Of a DNA stretch of 64,000 bases, positions 5,804 to 52,596 are shown piece after piece. Where the stretch lies: contig CAMKEG010000001.1 in assembly GCA_946411505.1 (NCBI GenBank), forward strand, positions 744,001 to 808,000, read 5' to 3'. The notes under the pieces were generated by a model that saw only the letters and a program-made list of their open reading frames with translations, made no database searches and was not told the origin of the DNA. Every line of letters begins with the position of its first letter. Position 1 is the stretch's first letter. The position numbers were made by a program, and so were the translations under genes. Source of the stretch: an uncultured Treponema sp. Lineage in GTDB: Bacteria; Spirochaetota; Spirochaetia; Treponematales; Treponemataceae.

Positions 5804-5948
5804 CCGCAAGCGGAGCGTTGCGGCTTATTGCCCGGCGCTCGTAAGAGCGCAAGTAAATAATTTCAATCTTGCAAAACGGCGGGCTTGCCCGACCGTATGC
5901 GGCAATCATACGATTATGGTCTTGTCATTTTTCTTCTTGCCGCTACTA
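5804..5948 (+). repeat. Structured dispersed repeat, family I, copy A
   Basis: The element contains hairpin GCGCTC-GTAA-GAGCGC, a linker with AAGTAAATAATTTCA and GCAAAACGG, hairpin CGGGC-TT-GCCCG, and an end segment closed by GCGGCAA/TTGCCGC. Its first 24 bases recur exactly at 5966-5989 and its last 53 bases recur with one mismatch at 5988-6040. Related copies lie at 32837-32903, 34644-34839 and 51530-51594. The 5477-6119 interval holds no convincing gene; it is made up of this and neighbouring repeats. Confidence 0.75.
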
Positions 5949-5965: not shown

Positions 5966-6040
5966 CCGCAAGCGGAGCGTTGCGGCTTATGCGGCAATCA
6001 TACGATTATGGTCTTGTCATTTTTCTTTTTGCCGCTACTA
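5966..6040 (+). repeat. Structured dispersed repeat, family I, internally deleted copy
   Basis: This copy joins the first 24 bases of copy A directly to its last 53 bases, so the central two hairpins are missing. The junction falls in the shared sequence around TTATGCGGC. It ends just where the infC promoter begins. Confidence 0.75.
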
Positions 6041-26663: not shown

Positions 26664-26819
26664 AAAAAAACGCTTCCAGTTGCGGTGTGGCTTGTCGGCG
26701 CCGCTTGATATCGGCGCTACTCGCTGTTTGCGCTTGAAACTTTCTGATTCCGCCGCTTTTGCGGCGGCGCAAACAGAGAGTCGCCGCAAGCCACCCCGCG
26801 CCTTCGCACGTTTTTTTTT
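26664..26819. repeat. Structured dispersed repeat, family II, copy 1
   Basis: A 156-base cloverleaf-like element. The outer stem pairs AAAAAAACG (26664-26672) with CGTTTTTTT (26809-26817). Inside are GTGGCTTG/CAAGCCAC (26687-26694 with 26787-26794), CGGCG/CGCCG (26696-26700 with 26782-26786), CTGTTTGCG/CGCAAACAG (26724-26732 with 26768-26776) and a hairpin CCGCCGC-TTTT-GCGGCGG (26750-26767). It sits between convergent genes, and A- and T-runs at its ends suit a two-way terminator. A second copy is at 45441-45600. Confidence 0.75.
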
Positions 26820-32145: not shown

Positions 32146-32925
32146 CTATTCCCTCACCGCGACGAACATCAAATGGTCGCTGTTGGGGAGGACGACGTTC
32201 CACAAGGCCTCAAAGTCTTTCCAAGACTCCTTGCGGTTGCACACCCCGCCGCTGGAATTGCGGAAGGACGGAACGGAATCCTGAATGTAGACAAAGCGCT
32301 GGTCGTAGCCGACGACTGGAACATAGTGCCAGCCGCCAGGGCAGTTTATCAAAACGATTACCGGGATGTTATGGCCCACGGCGCTTTTTAGAGCGGCGGC
32401 GTCGCCCTTAAAAACATTCATTTTATAGCCGAGCATTTTGTCCCAAAAATTTTTTAGCGGCTTGGGATTGATTGTTCCGTCGGGACTTTTTTCTTCAATT
32501 TGCCCGTAGATGTCCAAGCCCTTTGCGTCCTCGCCGTAAAAGCGCAAGACAAAGGCGGAGGACATCGCGCCGCACTCGTTATGCTCTTGGCTTTCGGCGG
32601 CGGGCATCGGGCTAATCGTAAAGGATTCCGCTTCCGGGCGGGAACCGGGAAGCGCGCTTTCGTCGTAGGCCAGGGCAACTATCATTCCGCGCTCGTAAAA
32701 GGCCTGGACAACCTCTTTGGGATAGCGCTTCAATACTTTTGAAAGGGAATCCTTTTTTTTGCAAGACGCAAAGAGCGCGAGGGCCGCGAGCGCGACAACG
32801 GCCACCATAATGCCGCGCTTGCGCGAAATCCGCTCGATTGCCAGCGCTCTGAAAGAGCGTGGTTGAATAAATTTCCATAAGCAAAACGGAGCGAAGCGAC
32901 GTAAACAACGATTAAGGTCTTTCAT
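32146..32925 (-). CDS. C39-like papain-fold lipoprotein
   Basis: 259-residue exported protein with a Peptidase_C39-like domain. Likely catalytic residues are Cys118 in HNECGAMSSAF, His200 in GGWHYVPVVGYD and Asp216 in VYIQDS. A lipoprotein signal (MVAVVALAALALFASC, Cys55) is preceded by 39 residues that come from a dispersed repeat (CLRRFAPFC...RALAI), so the repeat supplies the charged start of the signal. ATG 32925 lies 17 bases after the SPFH gene stop without a clear ribosome-binding site. It may process peptides or bind them. Confidence 0.75.
   Translation of the reverse strand: MKDLNRCLRRFAPFCLWKFIQPRSFRALAIERISRKRGIMVAVVALAALALFASCKKKDSLSKVLKRYPKEVVQAFYERGMIVALAYDESALPGSRPEAESFTISPMPAAESQEHNECGAMSSAFVLRFYGEDAKGLDIYGQIEEKSPDGTINPKPLKNFWDKMLGYKMNVFKGDAAALKSAVGHNIPVIVLINCPGGWHYVPVVGYDQRFVYIQDSVPSFRNSSGGVCNRKESWKDFEALWNVVLPNSDHLMFVAVRE
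32837..32903 (+). repeat. Structured dispersed repeat, family I, inside the C39-like gene
   Basis: Read on the plus strand it begins ATTGCCAGCGCTCTGAAAGA and continues to GCAAAACGGAGCGAAGCGACG, matching copy A at 5818-5897. The hairpin CGCTCT/AGAGCG replaces the GCGCTC/GAGCGC stem of copy A. On the coding (minus) strand it encodes LRRFAPFC and ALAI, the same frame as in the lytic transglycosylase gene. Confidence 0.7.
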
Positions 32926-32942
32926 ACAAAGATACGAGCGGT

Positions 32943-33827
32943 TTATTTTACCAATTCCTTAAGGCTTGCGGCAAGGCCGGCCATGTTCTGGATGTCGGCG
33001 GGAATGATAAGCTTTGTGGCTTGCCCTTGCGCGACTTTTTCAAGCGCCTCAAGGCTGCGGAGCTTTATGACAGCTTCGTCGATTTTGGCTTCTTTTATCA
33101 CGCGCAAGCCTTCGGCGGTGGCGGACTGGACTTCTCGAATCGCGGCGGCCTCGCCTTCTGCCTTTCTAATCTTGGCTTCCTTTTCGGCCTCGGCCTGCAA
33201 AATCATCGCCTGCTTTTGTCCTTCCGCGACAAGGATTTCGCTTTGCTTTTGTCCTTCGGCGATAAGGATTTTTTCGCGCCTTTCGCGTTCGGCTCGCATT
33301 TGCTTTTCCATCGCTTCACGAATCGCCTCGGGCGGCATAATGTTCTTGACTTCGACGCGGTTCACCTTGATGCCCCAAGGGTCTGTGGCCTCGTCGATGA
33401 TCGCGCGCATTTTTGTGTTTATGATGTCGCGGCTTGTGAGCGTTGTGTCCAAGTCCAGCTCGCCGATGATGTTTCGCAGCGTCGTCGCGCTAAGGTTTTC
33501 TATGGCCATCATCGGGGCCTCAACGCCGTAAGTGTAAAGCTTGGGCTCGGTGATTTGCATGTAGACGACGCTGTCGATTTTCATCGTGACGTTGTCCTTT
33601 GTGATTACAGGCTGGGGCGGAAAGTCCAGCACTTGCTCTTTAAGAGTGACTGTGTTGGCGATTCTGTCGATAAAGGGAATCTTCACGTGCAGGCCAGCCT
33701 GCCAAGTCGCGCAGTAAGTTCCAAGCCGTTCGATGATAAAGGCGCGGGACTGGGGAACAATCCTGATGTTAACGACAACCAACAAAAAAACGATTACGCA
33801 CAAGGCGATTAAAAAATATGAGCTCAT
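32943..33827 (-). CDS. SPFH/Band 7 (stomatin/QmcA-like) membrane protein
   Basis: 294-residue protein. One N-terminal membrane anchor (YFLIALCVIVFLLVVVNI) is followed by the Band 7 domain (VPQSRAFIIERLGTY, then PEAIREAMEKQMRAERERRE) and a coiled coil with repeated ILVAEGQKQ units. SPFH proteins form membrane-bound cages that scaffold or regulate proteases such as FtsH. No NfeD partner gene is adjacent. It lies 15 bases after map and 17 bases before the C39-like lipoprotein gene, so these three are likely one operon. Confidence 0.9.
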   Translation of the reverse strand: MSSYFLIALCVIVFLLVVVNIRIVPQSRAFIIERLGTYCATWQAGLHVKIPFIDRIANTVTLKEQVLDFPPQPVITKDNVTMKIDSVVYMQITEPKLYTYGVEAPMMAIENLSATTLRNIIGELDLDTTLTSRDIINTKMRAIIDEATDPWGIKVNRVEVKNIMPPEAIREAMEKQMRAERERREKILIAEGQKQSEILVAEGQKQAMILQAEAEKEAKIRKAEGEAAAIREVQSATAEGLRVIKEAKIDEAVIKLRSLEALEKVAQGQATKLIIPADIQNMAGLAASLKELVK

Positions 33828-34643: not shown

Positions 34644-34839
34644 GATTGCCCGCCCGCGTGAGCGGGCAAGTAAATCATTTCTTATCGCAAAACGGCAACG
34701 CCGTAATGTTGCGGCTTATTGCTTGGCGCTCGTGAGAGCGCTAGTAGATAATTTCATTTTTTGCAAAACGGCGGACTTTTGTCCGACGTATGCGGCTAGC
34801 CATCGTTTTTTGGCTTGCCTCAATTTTTTTTTGCCGCTA
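34644..34839 (+). repeat. Structured dispersed repeat, family I, copies D and B in tandem
   Basis: Copy D (34644-34704) has hairpin GCCCGC-GTGA-GCGGGC and CGGC-AAC-GCCG. Copy B (34709-34839) has GCGCTC-GTGA-GAGCGC, then CGGAC-TTTT-GTCCG, then GCGGC...GCCGC. Both keep the linkers AAGTARAT and GCAAAACGG of copy A at 5804-5948. The last bases provide the stop codon of the J-domain gene on the minus strand. Nothing else is seen between map and that gene. Confidence 0.75.
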
Positions 34840-45440: not shown

Positions 45441-45600
45441 AAAAAAACACGCTCCCAGTTGCGGATGCGACAGTTCGGCACCGCTAGCTAGCGTCGCTAC
45501 TCGCTGTTTGCGCTTGTAACTATTTAACTCCGCCGCTTTTGCGGCGGCGCAAAACAGAGAGTTGCCGCCTGTCGCCCCACGCCTTCGCGCGTGTTTTTTT
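45441..45600. repeat. Structured dispersed repeat, family II, copy 2
   Basis: Outer stem AAAAAAACACGC (45441-45452) pairs with GCGTGTTTTTTT (45589-45600). Inside are GCGACAG/CTGTCGC (45467-45473 with 45569-45575), CGGCA/TGCCG (45476-45480 with 45563-45567), CTGTTTGCG with CGCAAAACAG, and the same CCGCCGC-TTTT-GCGGCGG hairpin (45530-45547) as copy 1 at 26664-26819. Stems differ from copy 1 by paired changes. It fills part of the 382-base gap between secG and tpiA. Confidence 0.75.
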
Positions 45601-45604
45601 CTTT

Positions 45605-45706
45605 AATTCCCGCGAATGGATTCTTAAAAAAAATCCACTCGGCGGGAATTATTTTACAAATACGAGCGGACCGCGCTCGCAAGCGAAGCGTCGCGAAAAT
45701 CCGCTC
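45605..45706. other. Nested stem-loops after tpiA
   Basis: AATTCCCGC/GCGGGAATT (45605-45613 with 45642-45650) encloses TGGATT/AATCCA, and GAGCGGA/TCCGCTC (45664-45670 with 45700-45706) encloses CGCT-CGCA-AGCG. These lie between tpiA and the family II repeat. No open frame of note is seen in the gap. One may terminate tpiA transcription. Confidence 0.45.
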
Positions 45707-45747
45707 GAAAAAACAACGTCAATCTTTCAACCGACAATACGAGCGGA

Positions 45748-50473: not shown

Positions 50474-51523
50474 ATGAAAAAGCTTTTTAGAATTGGAACG
50501 GCGGCCTTCCTTTGCTTTTCCTTGGCGTTGGCCTCCTGCAAAAACGACGGCGCCGCAAAGGCAAAGACGGACAACGAGGTTCAAAAGCAGCTGGAAAACC
50601 TTTTGCGCCAGCCTTCCCTTTCAAACGAAAGCCGTTACGCGATAATAAACCGAATCGCGACAAAATGGCTTGACGACAAGCGCTACGACGACTTGATTTT
50701 GTACTTGACCGACTATGTGGAAAGGAACCCCAACGACAAATACAACGCCTATTGGCTTTTGATGACCGCCTACACTTACATACAGCTAAGGCAGGAACGG
50801 GTGGCCGAATATTACTTTGAGCGCATAATCCGCGACTACCAAGACCTAAAGGTCAAGGAGCAGTCGATTCATTTCATTTGCCTTGAGCGGCTGATTCAAA
50901 TTTCGACCAACCACGAAAACCGCATAAAATATTTCAACACGCTGATAAACCGCTTTCCGTCCAACGTAAGCATCACGGAAATGTACGTGCGCCTGGCGCG
51001 GGAATACGAGCAAATCGGAGAATGGACGCGGGCTCTCAAAACCTACAACATGTTCCTGGAGCAGCCGGACGCGAGCTCAATCCAAATAACCGACATGCAC
51101 GACATCTACAATTACGCGCGCAACTTGATTGACTTCAACAACTCCCCAAAAAACTGGACCTTCAAATCCTTGGATTCGCTCGCGTCCTCGGTAAAGACGG
51201 CCATCACCCGCTACCAGCCGCGCAAATTGGACGAATACCGTTCCAAGGTAAATTTCTTCGCCGTTTCCTGGAGGCAGGACGACAGCGTTCCTACAGGCTC
51301 GGTTGATTTTTCGATGAGAAACTTCATGCACGGAAACAGAATCAGCGTAACGGAAGAGCTGATTCCAGGGCCCACAATCAACGAAGCGTATTTAAAGACC
51401 AGGGGCTGGACGCTTGCCGTTCCGACTTGGTATTTTTATTTTAGAAAAGTAAACTTTCCGGCCGATCCGGATATTCACGGAACATGGGAATGGGCTGGCA
51501 TTTATATCGGCGAGATGATGTAA
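50474..51523 (+). CDS. TPR-like lipoprotein
   Basis: 349-residue exported lipoprotein. The signal MKKLFRIGTAAFLCFSLALASC gives Cys22. Residues about 50-230 are helical repeats of TPR type (DYVERNPNDKYNAYWLLMTA; LAREYEQIGEWTRALKTYNMF). The C-terminal 100 residues are beta-rich and I do not recognise them (GWTLAVPTWYFYFRKVNF). It heads a group of envelope genes. The start of the next gene overlaps its 3' end only if the upstream ATG of that gene is used. Confidence 0.75.
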   Translation: MKKLFRIGTAAFLCFSLALASCKNDGAAKAKTDNEVQKQLENLLRQPSLSNESRYAIINRIATKWLDDKRYDDLILYLTDYVERNPNDKYNAYWLLMTAYTYIQLRQERVAEYYFERIIRDYQDLKVKEQSIHFICLERLIQISTNHENRIKYFNTLINRFPSNVSITEMYVRLAREYEQIGEWTRALKTYNMFLEQPDASSIQITDMHDIYNYARNLIDFNNSPKNWTFKSLDSLASSVKTAITRYQPRKLDEYRSKVNFFAVSWRQDDSVPTGSVDFSMRNFMHGNRISVTEELIPGPTINEAYLKTRGWTLAVPTWYFYFRKVNFPADPDIHGTWEWAGIYIGEMM

Positions 51524-52596
51524 ACCGGCTACGTCGCTTCGCGCCGTTTTGCATAGGAAGACATCCACAGGCACGCTCCCGCGAGCTGGCAATCGCGCCT
51601 AATTGGAGCCTGCTCGTCATTGCTCTCGCGCTTCTCTTTGCGTCCTCCCTCTCTTTTTCGCAAGACCAAAAAGCCGGCGCGCCCCAAAACTCTTCGCAAG
51701 CCCAAGAAGCGCCGCAAGAATTCGCGCCCGAGGAATTTGTCTCCGAATGGGGCGGGAGCGGCTTTTACCGAAAGATAGACTTGCCCGGCGCCGAGCGGGA
51801 CGAGGTCAAGCCGTACAGGGCCCGATGGACCACAAGCTGGGGCCGCGCGGAACTCAAGGCGATTTTGGAAAACGGCTCCCAATACCGGCATTACGTAAAG
51901 CGCCGGCTGGCGGAAGAAGGCCTTCCTTCCTGCATTGAATACATTCCAGTAATAGAGTCAAGCTACAAGCCCTTGGCGAGCCCGGCCAGCGGAAAGTCAA
52001 TAGGCCTTTGGCAGTTCATGGAAAACAGCATTGAAAACTACCTGCGAAAGACAAAATGGATTGACGAGCGGCGCGACCCTTGGAAGTCCACCGACGCGGC
52101 GATAAAAAAGCTGAAGGCCAACCACAAGCAATTCGGCGACTGGCTTTTGGCCATCGCGGCCTACAACTGCGGCGCCGGCGCGGTGAAACGGGCGCTCAAA
52201 AAAACTTCCGAAAAAACTTTTTGGTCTCTGTCAAAAAACAAGCTGATTCCCGACCACGCCATCGCCTACGTTCCAAATTTAATAGCCGTAAGCGACCTGG
52301 CCGAAAACGCGGCCTACTACAACTTGGACTTGCCTAAAGCCTTTTACGAGCCGGAAAGCTATTCGCCGCTGGACGACTTTGACACGCTCGCCGTGAAGCA
52401 GGCGATTTCGATAAAGGCGCTGGCCAACGAGCTTAGAATAGACCCTCAAATTTTGGAGAGCCTCAACCCCGCGCTTTTATACGGAATCACGCCGCCCGAC
52501 GAAGAGTACGAGCTTAGGCTTCCAAGCGGAAAGAGGACGGCGGCGGAAGACGCGATTTTTACTATTATGTTGAAAAGCGATTTTGCCGATAACTAA
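51484..52596 (+). CDS. Lytic transglycosylase (MltD/Slt-like)
   Basis: 370-residue exported peptidoglycan enzyme. The catalytic Glu158 is in YIPVIESSYKP, followed by the SIGLWQFM and AYNCGAGAVKRALK motifs of family 1 transglycosylases. The C-terminal part (ANELRIDPQILESLNPAL) is LysM-like. A signal helix (SLLVIALALLFASSLS) follows about 24 residues encoded by a dispersed repeat (LRRFAPFC...RELAI). The only in-frame ATGs (51484, 51490) lie inside the preceding gene, so the start is uncertain. A Gln/Ala linker near residues 60-80 holds the short CAAGACC motif. Confidence 0.8.
   Translation: MGMGWHLYRRDDVNRLRRFAPFCIGRHPQARSRELAIAPNWSLLVIALALLFASSLSFSQDQKAGAPQNSSQAQEAPQEFAPEEFVSEWGGSGFYRKIDLPGAERDEVKPYRARWTTSWGRAELKAILENGSQYRHYVKRRLAEEGLPSCIEYIPVIESSYKPLASPASGKSIGLWQFMENSIENYLRKTKWIDERRDPWKSTDAAIKKLKANHKQFGDWLLAIAAYNCGAGAVKRALKKTSEKTFWSLSKNKLIPDHAIAYVPNLIAVSDLAENAAYYNLDLPKAFYEPESYSPLDDFDTLAVKQAISIKALANELRIDPQILESLNPALLYGITPPDEEYELRLPSGKRTAAEDAIFTIMLKSDFADN
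51530..51594 (-). repeat. Structured dispersed repeat, family I, inside the transglycosylase gene
   Basis: On the minus strand it reads GATTGCCAGCTCGCGGGAGC and ends GCAAAACGGCGCGAAGCGACG, aligning with copy A at 5804 and with the copy at 32837-32903. The coding strand gives LRRFAPFC and ELAI, the same frame as in the C39-like gene. It begins just after the stop codon of the TPR lipoprotein gene. Confidence 0.7.

Follow-up and report, generated by a model that had tools for sequence, protein, structure and literature searches.

Nested palindromic mobile elements as the probable source of the N-terminal segment of a lipoprotein in rumen Treponema

How did a lipoprotein gene of an uncultured Treponema acquire an N-terminal segment that some of its relatives carry only in part or not at all? 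The gene lies in a stretch of 64,000 nucleotides, referred to here as the window, whose positions are used throughout. Its open reading frame (32146-32925, minus strand) encodes 259 aa, about the first 37 codons of which are repeat-derived; the product has the lipobox LFASC and Pfam matches to PF13529 (7.6e-8, residues 113-217) and PF03412 (1.3e-5), in keeping with a C39-like peptidase fold, and the gene is located directly downstream of a qmcA/stomatin (Band_7) gene (32943-33827, minus strand; PF01145, 4e-40), a synteny also found in the related genome G045. An earlier note had recognised a repeat in frame inside this gene, and the repeat proved to be a dispersed one. We consider it very probable that the segment consists of nested, non-autonomous palindromic mobile elements, which inserted at the 5′ end of the gene in rumen Treponema.

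The 67 bases at 32837-32903 (minus strand), which hold the 66-nt core (32837-32902), were searched at the DNA level against the genome of the window (G000; 2.82 Mb in 14 contigs), giving at least 20 matches with E ≤ 0.001, the best non-self match being 96% identical over 67/67 bases (E 6e-25). A profile search of the clade loci examined found at least 136 distinct copies; this and the other copy counts rest on searches and on examined stretches of clade genomes, and are lower bounds. Among the copies listed, 98 of 136 are intergenic. Three further copies are on the minus strand of the window, namely at 34645-34696, between the genes of a DnaJ-domain protein and methionine aminopeptidase (profile match 9.8e-11), at 34726-34773 (1.4e-6) and at 5827-5883 (2.8e-9), and an Rfam scan of the window matched no family. 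The copies have in common a terminal stem of six pairs, which is held by compensatory changes (669 of 683 cells paired, against a shuffle maximum of 569; at stem position 45-56, 69 copies have a GC pair, 38 have CG and 4 have TA). The core is, therefore, a constrained palindromic element and not a chance repeat.

To follow the history of the site, the lipoprotein locus was compared in five related rumen Treponema known from metagenome assemblies: RUG239 (G161), UBA4377 (G082), RUG14489 (G169), Tb.RUG.459 (G045) and RGIG7863 (G117), the names having been assigned through identity of gene 5′ regions. One carries a second palindrome, module A, without the core, one carries both, and in three neither is intact; orthologues lacking the segment, which the earlier note had expected, do exist. 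Module A is an outer element split by the core (32830-32941, minus strand), with arms CCGCTCG (32935-32941) and CGAGCGG (32830-32836). In G082, whose protein is 95% identical, it stands alone between the same flanks, with exactly 66 nt fewer and the frame kept, while in G000 and G161 the core lies within it, between TTGTTT and CGAGCGG, again as exactly 66 nt and with the frame kept. The insertion had been placed at 32837-32903; the repeat is indeed there, but the G082 flanks set its extent to 66 nt, 32837-32902. In frame with the open reading frame, these 22 codons translate to LRRFAPFCLWKFIQPRSFRALAI. That the N-terminal segment is repeat-derived thus holds, but it was ascribed to a single repeat, and two nested elements supply it, module A contributing even the ATG.

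Module A is itself dispersed, with at least 48 distinct copies in the profile search of the clade loci examined, one of them without core at 45700-45746 of the window (minus strand; 1.7e-5), and five composites of module A and core in G035. A hairpin directly 3′ of module A, ATTTCGCGCAAGCGCGG (32813-32829, minus strand), is common to the composite copy of locus L001 and may be partly ancestral sequence, as G169 and G045 both have AAGCGCGG. The L001 copy (L001:2274-2340; G000:C1:628273) is the paralogue closest to the composite in the window, which it matches at 91% across 125 nt; it is apparently intergenic, and a copy of a third palindrome, module C (see below), is found about 25-40 nt off.

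The presence or absence of the core at the lipoprotein locus is clean, unlike that of module A. In G169 the gene begins with a short 5′ end of another kind, which resembles module A weakly, and so the history of module A at this locus is uncertain; similarity was detected in G169 and perhaps in G045 (shuffle fractions 0.0015-0.004), and in view of these weak traces a polarity call for the module A insertion was set aside. The same traces are what could be expected if the segment were old protein sequence, deleted in the relatives, and the dispersed copies derived from the gene. We judge such a history highly improbable: more than 100 distinct copies are found, mostly intergenic and in other contexts, the hairpin covaries, and presence and absence differ by precisely 66 nt here and 63 nt elsewhere. 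As a separate observation, the lipoprotein copy of G161 (L055/L058, contig C55) changes frame after residue 105 and so falls into two parts, which may reflect a pseudogene or an assembly error.

Where translation of the lipoprotein begins bears directly on whether the elements are read as protein. In G045 and G117, which have no intact element, the start codon overlaps the qmcA stop and is a GTG in the former and an ATG in the latter; in G000, G161 and G082 this old start codon is now ATA. These three genomes have their first in-frame ATG within module A (32923-32925, minus strand), at a position that is non-ATG in most other module A copies, e.g., TTGCAAGACC; its nearest Shine-Dalgarno-like sequence is more than 30 nt away. 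The comparison of orthologues indicates that this ATG is most likely the new start, adopted after loss of the old GTG. The earlier note had raised a start downstream, at MVAVVAL (residue 40, M40), and for the lipoprotein this is compatible with the sequence alone. M40 is present in G000, G161, G082 and G169, and the element starts one base past the qmcA stop, in a position where REPs are typically found (PMC3733652). These facts would suit extragenic palindromes sitting in the gap between qmcA and the lipoprotein gene, with translation from M40, a coincidentally open frame and an effect at most on mRNA stability or folding, a reading that we regard as possible but rather unlikely. G045 and G117 lack M40, so that their translation has to begin upstream of the insertion site, and M40 is accompanied neither by a Shine-Dalgarno-like sequence nor, in MVAVVALAAL, by a positively charged n-region.

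An open frame is by itself weak evidence on this point, since about one third of other core copies would also leave it open. When 59 other full-length copies were substituted at the same point, the lipoprotein frame stayed open in 22 of 59 in this orientation and in 17 of 59 reversed, counts that hold for either gene left open. The use of the same frame in two genes was, therefore, rejected as a proof of coding, in agreement with what the coincidental frame would require.

The second of these genes offers a further approach. It encodes an SLT-type lytic transglycosylase-like exported protein of 370 aa (51484-52596, plus strand), which, from motif recognition, we take to be a lytic transglycosylase, and its start is overlapped by an upstream lipoprotein gene (50474-51523, plus strand). 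The earlier note located the repeat at 51530-51594 in the same frame, and this was borne out: the core occupies 51531-51593 (plus strand, 63 nt), lies between the n-region and the hydrophobic stretch and translates, in the element frame used in the lipoprotein gene, to LRRFAPFCIGRHPQARSRELAI. Orthologues were found in 13 of the 13 genomes searched; the core is also present in that of G161 and absent in eight others of the clade. In the window, no ATG, GTG or TTG separates the core from the hydrophobic stretch, and none was seen in G161, thus the downstream start allowed for the lipoprotein has no counterpart here and the core must be translated if the transglycosylase is exported. The start of this gene is likely the ATG overlapping the upstream gene, because at the position that is GTG in G149 and G050 the element-free genomes G123 and G045 show GTA, and their proteins begin MGRHL.RRNDV with the hydrophobic stretch directly after. 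The frame argument is accordingly stronger for the second gene than for the lipoprotein gene.

Further in-gene insertions came to light when codon usage was scored on either flank of each copy. By this means the core was found inside RecG in G000 and G035 and, in G169, in the linker between IspD and IspF. Both genes also harbour module C, the third palindrome (GATTGCGGCGCG...CGCGCCGCAAAAGGAACGAGTCAAGG...CCTTGACCGTTCC; peptide DCGATI.DAPQKERVKALSEACLDRSY). Six species carry module C in frame in RecG, at three linker sites in all: in G000 and G045 it precedes the helicase core, in G082 and G123 it comes directly ahead of motif I, and in G035 and G050 it follows VYPAIG; in the IspD part of IspDF it occupies one site, in full in G169 and partially in G117. 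The aligned RecG and IspDF proteins of outgroup Treponema contain no element. The RecG flanks match 1GM5 well on both sides of the insert, and the variable length of these linkers against 1GM5 suggests that the inserted peptide may be solvent-exposed and translated. Insertions in RecG, IspDF and the transglycosylase are left unexplained by hairpins confined to an intercistronic gap. They also bear on two statements of the earlier note. Entry into genes in the manner of Rickettsia elements is upheld functionally, RecG and IspDF being interrupted in frame too, but insertion at signal peptides is not a rule: most copies lie between genes, and it is cytoplasmic enzymes that hold the clearest coding insertions.

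Every in-gene copy of module C is read in one and the same frame. Among 62 full copies this frame is open in 29, more often than any of the other five, which are open in 3 to 11; 87 of the 121 copies listed are intergenic. The in-gene copies encode peptides of greater hydrophilicity than those translated conceptually from copies elsewhere (Mann-Whitney p 0.0014, n = 6 vs 46, the six being related to one another), which is consistent with selection for harmlessness, at or after insertion. Two further cases were noticed. In the RecG of G035 (L045), VSLSGATRQSF precedes the motif HLLMMSATP and has the look of another repeat-derived insertion, and an acetyltransferase-like reading frame of 391 codons in G123 (L169:1568-2741, contig C30) includes two core-plus-REP-like copies, reading SLTVRVSGPVNNFLDKTERSDV...KIAGS.PAMT in a frame that differs from that of RecG.

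The same hydrophilicity could be invoked if the element peptides had been kept for their own sake, an Arg-rich peptide serving as a better signal-peptide n-region or as a useful linker. The predicted element-derived peptides (LRRFAPFC..., DCGATI.DAPQKER, DCQRSQERSEIISSSK) include basic ones such as LRRFAPFC...R and, with its old start lost, the lipoprotein gene appears to depend on the element for initiation. Nevertheless, element-free orthologues have charged n-regions of their own, and the in-gene copies are distributed patchily and erode from one related species to another, as in the RecG of G045, which has remnants such as DCGA and, at site 2, the trace LLKAQDCGA. We therefore hold such adaptive retention to be improbable.

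The preferred reading, nested mobile elements, draws on the recurrence of nesting in other contexts. The core lies within module A at two different positions; the RecG of G035 differs from that of its sister G050 by exactly 63 nt of core cleanly inserted into module C, and in that of G000 the arrangement is the same at another site; in G123 it is found inside REP-like hairpins that resemble the CGTC type (attcccgcgt[core]cgcgggaatgaca). Nesting of one palindrome in another is thus recurrent. At the lipoprotein locus, module A, a 46-nt palindrome, would be the older element, and the core would have entered it immediately ahead of the 3′ arm, leaving the frame intact; once the old GTG was lost, the module A ATG at 32925 would have served as the start, and the core would then encode residues 8-29 of the lipoprotein precursor. 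Spread probably occurred by mobilisation of the DNA in trans by a putative enzyme, most copies persisting between genes. The minority within genes would survive where length and frame permit translation and where the site, for instance a signal-peptide n-region or an inter-domain linker, tolerates an extra peptide, with a presumably near-neutral effect on the protein.

A tree built from RecG, IspDF, the transglycosylase and QmcA placed the ten element-bearing genomes in one clade with support 100, divided into two main groups (91 and 80). RecG site 3 is common to the sisters G035 and G050, site 2 to G082 and G123, and the lipoprotein composite to G000 and G161. Such a distribution fits insertion followed by erosion, and some of the sharing across groups could be due to horizontal exchange. 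A Y1/RAYT transposase gene (PF01797) was absent from 10 of 10 clade genomes and present in 2 of 3 outgroups searched, the genomes compared being incomplete MAGs; on this ground RAYT/Y1 was ruled out as the mobiliser. The exact insertion sites show no evident target-site duplication.

Among known systems, the elements are best read as behaving like the palindromic elements of Rickettsia (RPEs), which enter genes with the frame intact and can leave the product functional, as in an RPE-bearing guanylate kinase that is active (PMC2229807, PMC3767692, PMC10969869). RPE-1/-2/-3 and others, and the Wolbachia WPE, are likewise dispersed palindromes found both between genes and, in frame, in conserved housekeeping genes, some families being patchy among orthologues (PMC3767692, PMC2229807, PMC10969869). 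The Treponema elements are dispersed palindromes with a stable stem-loop as well, and occur patchily and in frame in unrelated conserved genes (lipoprotein, transglycosylase, RecG, IspDF). Compared by description, however, their units appear shorter (46-79 nt) and nest in one another: the core measures 62-66 nt, module A 46-47 nt plus hairpin and module C 76-81 nt, the composite of module A and core reaching about 112-130 nt, against about 100-150 nt for the RPE unit. Moreover, their hosts are MAGs of Treponema, rumen spirochaetes, and not the obligate intracellular Rickettsia or Wolbachia, so that we did not file them as RPE. CGTC and GTAG REPs are also small palindromes, mostly intergenic, which occur within genes of several phyla, some in frame and especially in DNA-repair genes; CGTC REPs are known in Spirochaetes and have no dedicated transposase (PMC3733652). 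The core differs in lacking the terminal CGTC/TGTC, the 8-9 bp stem starting with AT and the CCA tail, and its consensus ACGTCGCTTCGCTCCG... has the conserved hairpin at the opposite end; the Y1_Tnp/RAYT gene that would point to the GTAG type was not found in the ten clade genomes. In Yersinia, the YPAL/RU-2 MITE is a mobile palindrome within a predicted signal peptide (YPO1552; PMC2229807), but there the repeat peptide is rich in hydrophobic residues, whereas in Treponema the repeat provides the n-region and the hydrophobic stretch is host-derived.

Protein-coding palindromes were first seen as a peculiarity of Rickettsia and Wolbachia, and were later extended to REPs. The phenomenon is thus known in kind; for these element families, this host lineage and nested in-gene insertions, we found no description in the open-access literature, nor any earlier account there of palindromic or miniature elements of Treponema. 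Whether several families of protein-coding palindromes insert into each other inside genes of a lineage that is not obligate intracellular, so that nested, frame-preserving insertion makes proteins grow stepwise and, in some genes, an element takes over the start codon once that of the host has been lost, is a wider proposition that we consider evenly balanced. Several sister species display filled, nested, partly eroded and empty sites of one gene, allowing gain, nesting and decay to be traced step by step, and RecG, with three linkers in six species, together with the signal-peptide n-regions, gives test cases for positions that accept new sequence. In practice, gene callers will misplace starts in such genomes. 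The window also contains repeats of other kinds: a separate 79-nt family with a GC-rich hairpin end (GCCGCTTTTGCGGCGGC) at 26695-26773 and 45475-45553, 87% identical, and a direct repeat of 53 nt at 5896-5948 and 5988-6040, 98% identical with a spacing of 92 nt.
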